This document shows positions 43,175-45,735 of a DNA stretch of 64,000 nt, piece after piece. Source of the DNA: an uncultured Prevotellaceae bacterium (GTDB lineage: Bacteria > Bacteroidota > Bacteroidia > Bacteroidales > Bacteroidaceae); contig CADCEQ010000004.1 in assembly GCA_902800435.1 (NCBI GenBank), positions 47,011 through 111,010 of the forward strand, in the 5' to 3' direction. Every line of letters starts with the position of its first letter. Within the stretch, counting starts at the first letter, position 1. The notes beneath the pieces are model-generated. The model saw only the letters and a program-made list of their open reading frames with translations, had not been told where the DNA came from and ran no database searches. Position numbers and translations under genes: made by a program.

Positions 43175-43208
43175 TCCACCACCCATCACCTATCACCCAA
43201 CACCCACA

Positions 43209-43297
43209 TCCAGCACTGACCACTGATCGTCAGACAGTTACGAAGCCCCAATGCCGGTTTTTCCTGCACTGGGGCTTCTGCGTTCCTGCACTGCGCC
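43209..43297. repeat. Left structured inverted repeat of the VirE element
   Basis: Outer part TCCAGCACTGACCACTGA, then GTCAGACAGTTA, a perfect 9-bp hairpin (43242-43250 with 43270-43278), and two inner TTCCTGCACTG copies (one in the loop-arm border). It matches the reverse complement of 45576-45663: 26 or so of the first 32 bases agree and the hairpin has different but equally paired arms. Confidence 0.75.
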
Positions 43298-43473
43298 TCT
43301 TGCACAAATCGTGCTTTAACATAATTTAAAGCGGCAGTCACGAAAAAGTTTCGCGGCGTGACTGGCGGGTTTTCCTGGCAAGAAAAATCGGTTTTCCAGC
43401 CGCGAAACATTTGCTGACCGCCTTTTTGAAAATCCATGACGGCGCGTTTTGCCTGTAAGGCGACTCAGGGGAC

Positions 43474-43504
43474 TTGCAAGTGTCGGAAATATGTACTATC
43501 TTTG
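43474..43504 (+). promoter_or_regulatory. Promoter of the VirE gene
   Basis: TTG (43474-43476), about 20 bases, TATCTTTG (43497-43504), leader about 22 bases. Confidence 0.65.
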
Positions 43505-43532
43505 CACCAGCAAACCAAAAATCCTTTGGCTT

Positions 43533-45566
43533 ATGAAAATTTCAAAATTCACTACAAAAGATGGTGTGTACGGACGTCCCGTAACCACCGAGTTGGAAAC
43601 TATTGTCGAGCGGATGCGCTCAGAGAAGAACCGCGAAGCGGTGGAGCTGATAAGCGCCGGCGTGCGTGGCGACGCTGCCGACCGGCTGCCGCGGTTGCTG
43701 TTCAGCGGCACCTTCGGGCGCGGCGGCATTGACGGCCTGCGCACGATGAGCGGACTGGTGCTGATGGACGTCGACTGTCCGCAGGGCACGACGGAGGCCG
43801 CTGAGTTCAGGTGCCGCGTAGCCCGGGTGCCTTACACCGTGTTGGCGTTCATCGGCAGCAGCCGCCGCACGCTGAAGGTCGTCGTCAGCGTGGCCTTCAG
43901 CGACGGTCGCCAGCCTGTTGACCGTGCTGACTACGAGCGCCTGTTGGCCGACGGACAGCAGACGGCACAGGCTGTCTACCGCTCGTTGGCAGGCGTGGAA
44001 CTGCGGCCCGCCGGCGAGCCGCTGACGGCATCGTGTCGCGTGAGCTACGACCCGCAGCTGTACTTCCAGCCGTCGGCGCAGGCACTGCCGGTGGTGGCCG
44101 AACGGCTGTCGGCGCTGGTGCCTTACATGGCGGCGTCGGTCGACGACGACGGCACGGTGCGCTGGTATCCTGAGGAGGCCGAGCGCGAACGCATCCAGTG
44201 TGAGTTCTATGCCTGCCTGATGCGGGCCATGGAGGAGCATCCGCAGGACGGTGGCGAGGCGATGGTGGCCGCTTTGGCAGGCCACTGCCGGCGTGCTCGG
44301 CTGGAAGAGGAGAGCTGTGTGCGCCGCACGCTGTGGCAGTCGCAGTTGACAGAGTCGGAGCAGGTGGTGCGCCGCATCTTCCGTGCCGCCTACGGTAAGC
44401 CGTATAACGGCAAGACGGTGTCGGCCATGAACCAGAAGGAGCGCATAGCCCGCGACATCCGCTCGTTTATAGAGCGTCGCTACGACATGCGCTTCAATGT
44501 GGTGAAACATGGGGTGGAGTTCCGCCGCCACGATCAGGTCTTCAAGCCCTGGCAGCCGTTGGACAAGCGCGACATCAACCGCATAGCCTTCGAGGAGATG
44601 GAGGAGGGCGGCGAGGGCTGGCCCATCGACGTCGAGCTGTATACGCAGTCGTCGCTGGTCAAGGCGTACAATCCCATCCTGGAGTTCCTCGCCGGTTGCG
44701 GCAACTGGGACGGGCGGCGTAACTATATCGAGGACTATGCCCGGCGGCTGAACACCGACTTCGCGGAGTGGCCGCAGCTGTTCCACCGCTGGTTTCTCGC
44801 CATGGTGGCACAGCCCCTGAACCTCAGCCGCGACCACGGCAACTCCGTCGTCCCCCTGCTCATCGGCACGCAGGCCATGAAGAAGTCGACGTTCTGCAAG
44901 AACATCCTGCCGCCGTCGTTGCGCGAGTATTATATGGACGACATCAAGATGGACAATGCCGAACAGGTGGAGCGCGTGCTGGGGCGTATGTGGCTGGTCA
45001 ACATCGACGAGTACAACGCCAAGACCGACCGCGAGCAGGCGAAGATCAAGCGGCTGCTGACGGAGAAGGACGTGCAGGTGCGCCGTATGCGCTCCGACCA
45101 GTACACGATGACGCCCCGCCTCTGCTCGTTTATTGCCACCACCAACGAGCAGCGCCCACTTATCGACCCCACGGGATCGCGCCGCTACTTGTGCGTGGAG
45201 ATGACGGGCCAGGCCGACATGGAGGGACGCGTGCCCTACAAGCAGATGTACGCCCAGGCCGTCACTGAGCTGCGCCGCGGCGAGCGCTTCTGGTTCGACA
45301 ACGACGACGAGCGCCTTATCCAGGAGCATAACTGCCGCTACCAGCAGCTCAGCACCGTCGACGAAGTGCTCAACGCGCTGTTTGTGAGTGCCGACCGCCG
45401 CAAAGAGCACTTCATGACCACCACGCAGATACAGCAGCACCTGCGCAAGCAGCTCAAGGCCGGCGACGTGCCCTCGCTCGCCAAGCTGGGTCACGCCCTG
45501 CGCCGCCAGCACTTTGCCGACGGAGCCCGCGACGGCATCCACGGCTACTACCTGAAGTGCCGCTAA
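43533..45566 (+). CDS. VirE/VapE-type helicase-primase-like protein (BT4734-like N terminus)
   Basis: 677 residues from MKISKFTTKDGVYGRP, chosen because the promoter lies just upstream. The N-terminal third resembles the BT4734/VirE_N domain (GLRTMSGLVLMDVDC, FIGSSRRTLKVVVS), and residues ~380-620 match the VirE/VapE ATPase: IGTQAMKKSTFCKNIL (445-460), NIDEYNAKTDREQAKIKRLL and SFIATTNEQRPLIDPTGSRR. The usual P-loop GxxGxGKS is altered: both inner glycines are missing (GTQAMKKST). VirE-type proteins occur in phage satellites and genomic islands, where they may act in replication or phage interference. It is the only gene between two inverted repeats, 43209-45663. Confidence 0.85.
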   Translation: MKISKFTTKDGVYGRPVTTELETIVERMRSEKNREAVELISAGVRGDAADRLPRLLFSGTFGRGGIDGLRTMSGLVLMDVDCPQGTTEAAEFRCRVARVPYTVLAFIGSSRRTLKVVVSVAFSDGRQPVDRADYERLLADGQQTAQAVYRSLAGVELRPAGEPLTASCRVSYDPQLYFQPSAQALPVVAERLSALVPYMAASVDDDGTVRWYPEEAERERIQCEFYACLMRAMEEHPQDGGEAMVAALAGHCRRARLEEESCVRRTLWQSQLTESEQVVRRIFRAAYGKPYNGKTVSAMNQKERIARDIRSFIERRYDMRFNVVKHGVEFRRHDQVFKPWQPLDKRDINRIAFEEMEEGGEGWPIDVELYTQSSLVKAYNPILEFLAGCGNWDGRRNYIEDYARRLNTDFAEWPQLFHRWFLAMVAQPLNLSRDHGNSVVPLLIGTQAMKKSTFCKNILPPSLREYYMDDIKMDNAEQVERVLGRMWLVNIDEYNAKTDREQAKIKRLLTEKDVQVRRMRSDQYTMTPRLCSFIATTNEQRPLIDPTGSRRYLCVEMTGQADMEGRVPYKQMYAQAVTELRRGERFWFDNDDERLIQEHNCRYQQLSTVDEVLNALFVSADRRKEHFMTTTQIQQHLRKQLKAGDVPSLAKLGHALRRQHFADGARDGIHGYYLKCR

Positions 45567-45575
45567 TGACCACAG

Positions 45576-45663
45576 GCCAGTGCAGGAAAAGAGGCAGAAC
45601 CAGTGCAGGATCTCAGCACGGTTCTGCCTCTTAACTATCTGACACTCAGCGGTCAGTGCAGGA
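45576..45663. repeat. Right structured inverted repeat of the VirE element
   Basis: GGCCAGTGCAGGAA, a perfect 13-bp hairpin (45589-45601 with 45620-45632) whose arm-loop border again carries CCAGTGCAGGA, then TATCTGAC...GGTCAGTGCAGGA ending at 45663. Ten bases past the VirE stop, so it may also act as that gene's terminator. Confidence 0.75.
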
Positions 45664-45735
45664 AGTGCAAATACAGATTCCGATTAAACGAAACAGCCCA
45701 ACTTGGTTCTCTAACCTGTTGGACCATTCTGTCTT

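Follow-up and report, generated by a model that had tools for sequence, protein, structure and literature searches.

Single genes set between inverted repeats are known from REPtrons and TIRtrons, in which, according to the accessible part of the source, a RAYT or TIRYT gene is flanked by inverted repeats and repetitive extragenic palindromic (REP) or terminal inverted repeat (TIR) sequences are scattered (PMC3733652). Rep-type initiator helicases of Staphylococcus aureus pathogenicity islands (SaPI) and of the staphylococcal cassette chromosome mec (SCCmec) have an iteron origin directly downstream of the gene, and the island is moved by other enzymes (PMC7581432, in part). The BT4734-like proteins are a named family of archaeo-eukaryotic primases (AEPs; PMC5862659, in part). 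BrickBuilt of Porphyromonas gingivalis combines an internal 23-nt tandem repeat with 12-nt TIRs that resemble those of IS5-family elements, as stated in the available portion of PMC4596501. Here we describe a one-gene unit around a virE gene in 64,000 nucleotides of an uncultured Prevotellaceae bacterium (GCA_902800435.1, contig CADCEQ010000004.1, positions 47,011 to 111,010), a stretch that is called the window below. The unit probably represents a transposon-like family of Prevotella-type Bacteroidales, built on a replication-initiator helicase that recognizes iteron and hairpin ends. No description of such an element was found in the open-licence literature searched.

The transposable-like unit occupies positions 43205–45669 of the window (2,465 bp). 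Its limits are those of the blastn blocks shared with two relatives (loci L001 and L004) and are slightly wider than the 43209..45663 of the original prediction. The window and L001 share a block of 84% identity that runs from inverted end to inverted end (−328 to +106/+109 of virE), and the limits of the block shared by L001 and L004 are identical. The block between the window and L004 (79% identity, −393 to +106 of virE in window terms) continues about 60 bp past the left end; by eye, this extra part in L004 is an apparent 3' remnant of a DUF6078 gene. Beyond the unit, the similarity between the window and L001 consists of a separate DUF6078 gene, present at both loci, and two short stretches. 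Judged by the homology blocks of the three loci, the unit and its surroundings are separable. The sole gene with a Pfam family inside the unit is virE (43533–45566, forward strand), and for genes of this kind the earlier claim of a single gene between the ends is borne out. Four other open reading frames, which overlap virE or the left end, have no Pfam family. The flanking genes on both sides direct their 3' ends toward the unit.

The inverted outer arms (43205–43246 and 45626–45667) are 42 nt long and 81% complementary, in agreement with the paired inverted ends noticed previously. The left end (43205–43303, forward) comprises the outer arm, a hairpin, and three TCCWGCACTG iterons, and the inverted right end (45574–45669, reverse) comprises three TCCTGCACTG iterons, a hairpin, and the outer arm. 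On the left, the iterons lie on the reverse strand at 43209–43218 (L1, CAGTGCTGGA), 43262–43271 (L2), and 43284–43293 (L3). On the right, they lie on the forward strand at 45578–45587 (R3), 45601–45610 (R2), and 45654–45663 (R1, outer). The sequence CAGTGCWGGA occurs exactly six times in the 64 kb, three times in each end as had been claimed; with one mismatch allowed there are 12 copies, a total not above the random expectation (mean 9.9). The left hairpin (43242–43278; arms 43242–43257 and 43263–43278, 16 nt, 88% paired) and the right hairpin (45589–45632; arms 45589–45601 and 45620–45632, 13 nt, 100% paired) differ in arm sequence and have iterons L2 and R2, respectively, at their arm-loop borders. 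This arrangement is also as originally described. With DNA parameters, the predicted folds of the two ends are more stable than those of dinucleotide shuffles (z of −2.9 and −5.3). Between the left end and virE are palindromic units of about 22 bp each (43340–43440, limits by eye), with an inverted repeat at 43344–43377/43379–43412. Across 44 elements, this stretch has a 22-bp period (0.432 vs. 0.257 in shuffled sequences).

The 677-amino-acid VirE protein was characterized by Pfam, a predicted model, and structural matches. It has an AEP-like N-terminal domain (PF08800, residues 49–178; 87.6 bits against a cut-off of 22.4), a VapE ATPase/helicase domain (PF05272, residues 389–604), and, in the predicted model, a winged-helix-like C-terminal part (residues 606–677). 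The Pfam scan also returned PF19263 and gave no match to PF01797, while all NCBIfam matches fell below the curated cut-offs. Structural similarity was found to PriRep1 (7pds), the SaPI5 primase-helicase, and Cch2, and on the predicted model VirE is an initiator helicase like PriRep1 and SaPI Rep. PADLOC profiles hit by the N-terminal domain are a CRISPR-associated PrimPol and, at a weak level, a reverse transcriptase (RT)-associated VirE. Catalytic motif I (DxD) is kept in the window protein as DVD. By sequence, this primase motif appears to have been lost in most relatives: it was found at two of 66 scored loci (78 were read, and 12 were unmatched by the search motif) and in six of the 29 members of the alignment, window included. 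Of 119 genomes sampled from the order, 23 have PF08800 genes. The genome of L004 (G002) has 16 matches to the window VirE protein, an unusual expansion for one genome.

Relatives were collected by scanning one-per-species genomes with the alignment of 29 homologues. The best 80 of 99 encoding places were kept, and the record titles of these 80 name Prevotella, Prevotellaceae, Bacteroidaceae, Bacteroidales, or an uncultured bacterium, with many from ruminant samples. Together with the window this gave 81 VirE loci, of which 75 were testable for ends and six had too little flank. Inverted ends of about 100 bp, above shuffles, surround virE at 53 of the 75 testable loci (window included), a recurrence in other genomes that agrees with the original prediction. 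Most units span about 2.3–2.8 kb. At three loci (L021, L017, and L018) the left end lies 0.8–3.2 kb from virE, and at L021 and L017 other genes stand in between, as if units carry cargo.

The exact window iteron in several copies is confined to the closest relatives. The other loci have different end sequences; the iteron families include TCCTGCACTG and ATCGTGCTACAAGTGCTAC. Two doubtful passes (L033 and L078) were left out when left ends were matched against the remaining 51 right ends. The own right end was the best match in 35/51 cases and among the top three in 45/51. End sequences thus vary between elements but stay matched within one element. Moreover, end similarity tracks chiefly the C-terminal winged-helix region of VirE, beyond overall identity (0/500 permutations). 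In genome G005, an end comprises an outer pair of iterons, a single inverted iteron near +57, and three iterons in direct orientation, spaced 11 bp apart. At a threshold of z < −2, structure was found in 32/42 right ends, 18/51 left ends, 9/34 miniature ends, and 4/97 control flanks. The suggestion that the folded form matters therefore holds insofar as ends are more structured than flanks. Part of the pairing may instead be explained by protein binding, since the paired arms of several relatives are inverted iteron copies.

Short copies of the ends without the gene also exist. In the genome of L001 (G001), 17 places were examined, namely 13 paired-end elements of 241–582 bp without virE, one virE unit, two places cut by contig ends, and one lone motif. 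Of the three-mismatch hits outside pairs, one was followed and is the lone motif. When hits with up to two mismatches are considered and the two contig-cut ends are set aside, no gene other than virE is seen between paired ends in this genome, so that the end pair was not found around unrelated genes, the alternative raised with the original prediction. Two of the miniatures in G001 share a 292-bp stretch of 97.6% identity that reaches the same outer border (blastn). Miniatures or solo ends are present in four further genomes. In G002 there is a single short pair (L098). Two miniatures of G005 carry the iterons seen in the virE unit of that genome, with one mismatch in one of the four ends. 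The ends of two miniatures in G050 resemble those of a virE unit in the same genome (L304, G050:C2), the gene of which has an internal deletion. In G006, at least four ends stand alone, lacking a partner in the 1.5 kb inward of them. None of 18 short elements checked contains virE, and their longest ATG frame is 103 aa; a 19-residue match in L122 (E 0.009) was taken as chance. A window-type end with at most one mismatch was found in 8/150 genomes of the genus of G001, six of which have a single hit. A further inverted TCCTACACTG motif pair, about 480 bp apart, was observed in G005 (L108:1486–1963, G005:C90). Taken together, the many VirE loci with ends, the separable unit, and the gene-less copies give strong support to the earlier notion of a minimal element with its own ends. 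On the sequence comparisons, the units are discrete, form a family, have ends that coevolve, and are accompanied by miniatures.

Among 54 loci with enough flank, and with HU-HIG and DUF6078 genes set aside, neighbors are shared by 3/3 virE pairs of at least 95% identity, 0/8 of 85–95%, 1/81 of 75–85%, and 1/442 of 65–75%. Conservation of gene order can be high in this group: for one region, the same two stretches adjoin in many of the 60 relatives compared. The 17 miniatures checked all lie in intergenic sequence; of the 32 adjoining gene sides, 20 are 3' ends, eight of them within 20 bp. Terminator hairpins beside miniatures (7/34 flanks below z −1.5) are suggestive only. One possible empty site was found at the level of gene order: two convergent genes are separated by 423 bp with a miniature and their orthologues in G032 by 78 bp. 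The difference, 345 bp, is close to the 347 bp between the outer iterons of the miniature, although this length match may be luck. For the G005 miniature L152, no clear empty site was found in 60 relatives. Also at this locus (L152:696–797, G005:C43), between two conserved gene stretches, is a palindrome of about 90 bp that is unlike the virE ends; it is absent between the same two stretches in many relatives and recurs elsewhere in several genomes. In 18 elements, no offset had direct repeats of 2–9 bp above re-paired flanks as a sign of target-site duplication, the outer border not being base-exact.

A DUF6078 gene (PF19555; 42734–43174, forward) adjoins the unit in the window, with its 3' end toward it. 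Such a gene was found at 14/81 loci and a HU-HIG gene, up to 6 kb away, at 40/81. The two suggest interchangeable partners that replace each other beside virE units. The shared block takes in the adjoining HU-HIG gene in L026/L075 and L024/L030. At L030, one HU-HIG gene stands upstream, and another, which faces it from downstream, is truncated by the contig end. The name DUF6078 is absent from the open-licence literature searched.

We infer, as the best-supported explanation, that VirE drives movement of the unit, because virE is the gene seen inside the ends, and the ends vary along with the part of its protein presumed to read DNA. Each autonomous unit consists of the left end, the palindromic 22-bp units, virE, and the right end. 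The C-terminal winged helix of VirE would recognize element-specific iterons at both inverted ends, VirE oligomers would assemble there and melt the ends, and hairpins would extrude. Copies of the unit, or of any miniature that shares its ends, would be made by a presumably replicative route and inserted at intergenic sites, often by gene 3' ends, without target-site duplication. Cutting and joining would come from the host or another source, and the product of the adjoining HU-like (HU-HIG) or DUF6078 gene may have a part in shaping the ends. More tentatively, and at somewhat less than an even chance, this would be a class of DNA transposition with a single dedicated protein, a replication-initiator AAA+ helicase whose winged helix reads iteron/hairpin ends, with host enzymes or aberrant replication performing the cutting and joining and with miniatures served in trans.

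Several observations weigh against a mobile family driven by VirE. Movement is deduced from sequence, and none was observed. No nuclease, transposase, or integrase is recognizable in the unit by Pfam, and neither virE nor the four other open frames has a transposase domain; to our knowledge, an initiator helicase alone does not cut and join DNA. Ends were not found by the same test at 22/75 loci (some with partial genes, some borderline), and a direct-orientation control passed at 9/75. For distant PF08800 relatives, 18 regions (three from G001) were taken, seven without a tblastn match were dropped, and of the 11 compared only one (L231) has ends; L230 and L233, which lack the primase motif, gave no inverted ends. 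Searches for other families of ends gave no additional pairs in 9/10 genomes of one set and none in the six of another. No further exact iteron copy lies outside the unit in the 64 kb, own-genome copies having been sought in the window only. No nucleotide-exact empty site was found, and the intergenic sequence at the G032 site has diverged. Finally, Y1 transposases (PF01797) are present in G005, G006, and G050; the lack of a hit in the drafts G001 and G002 rules out a foreign enzyme for these two genomes only, and for that type only.

The Y1 genes and the missing cutting enzyme could mean that the ends belong to a transposase encoded elsewhere, with virE a passenger of its largest element that has no role in movement. 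Miniature inverted-repeat transposable elements (MITEs) can outlive their parent element, which would fit. We nevertheless regard this as unlikely: virE is the only gene seen inside the G001 ends, it keeps ends at 53/75 loci despite their changing sequences, the ends follow the C-terminal region of VirE, and G001 and G002 gave no Y1 hit. A domesticated, REPtron-like chromosomal system, in which VirE is kept for the host and the ends and miniatures are its binding sites dispersed long ago, would agree with the loss of the primase motif, the HU-like neighbor, and the uniformly intergenic miniatures, whose 3'-end placement is similar to that of REPs in the portion of PMC3733652 available. Such a system is harder to reconcile with units at unrelated places in relatives, with two nearly identical copies in G001, and with an end family matched in just 8/150 genomes, and is distinctly improbable.

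The Rep-like helicase with adjoining iterons also recalls an integrated replicon, a plasmid or phage-satellite remnant whose origin was duplicated at both sides of rep. The phage-satellite idea had been raised in the original prediction, but no support for it was found. Nor was there any for an invertible element, likewise raised there, although no search was aimed at inversion. The unit has no integrase or recombinase domain by Pfam, no flanking direct repeats above control, and a typical length of about 2.3–2.8 kb. Plasmids gave no match to the unit in a near search or to the left end in a distant one. Phages gave 115 records, all distant protein matches below 60% identity, and viral contigs a single weak relative. 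We therefore consider an integrated replicon very improbable. Even less credible is that ordinary terminator-like repeats flank the gene by chance. Both flanking genes do aim their 3' ends at the unit, but the element-specific matching of the two ends, the gene-less copies, and the relatives contradict this. At a lax threshold, Rfam returned just three microRNA matches, far under the gathering scores.

Well-known DNA transposon families encode their own DNA-cutting enzyme. If the transposon-like interpretation is true, a family whose only gene is a helicase gene, and which nevertheless shows matched ends, miniatures, and recent copies, would mean a new route of moving DNA or a hidden nuclease activity of VapE/AEP proteins. 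We know of no settled purpose for PF08800 genes, and this interpretation gives them a testable role. In addition, the matched pairs of ends and proteins, diverged many times, would be a ready set for working out DNA recognition.

Compared with known systems, the virE unit shares with the SaPI/SCCmec initiators named above a helicase, a C-terminal DNA-binding part, and short iterons by the gene (PMC7581432, in part), and its iterons and predicted fold would be compatible with a Rep helicase and a putative iteron origin. In contrast to those islands, iterons and hairpins here form both inverted termini of a one-gene unit with miniatures, and the integrase of a SaPI-type island has no counterpart among the Pfam domains of the unit. 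BT4734-like AEPs with a VirE/VapE helicase have the same domains. However, seven relatives from the order with intact DxD (L220–L224, L226, and L235) gave no inverted ends; most scored members of the virE clade lack the motif. Terminal inverted repeats and miniature derivatives are also features of a classical DDE insertion sequence (IS), from which the unit differs in having no transposase family by Pfam, and virE lacks the HUH Rep nuclease domain of Helitron/IS91-type rolling-circle elements. Bacterial IS MITEs such as BrickBuilt are likewise short, intergenic inverted-repeat elements, although the virE-family ends are about 100 bp long, iteron-based, and matched to virE units. BrickBuilt was rejected as the same system, its ends resembling IS5-family ones in the available text (PMC4596501). 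REPtrons and TIRtrons, as far as the accessible part of PMC3733652 describes them, are similar in having one gene in inverted repeats and gene-less copies elsewhere near gene 3' ends; their gene encodes a tyrosine transposase, whereas that of the unit encodes an AEP/VapE helicase. Because the defining transposase is absent, the virE system is a member of neither the REPtrons nor the transposons with MITEs, yet it works like both.
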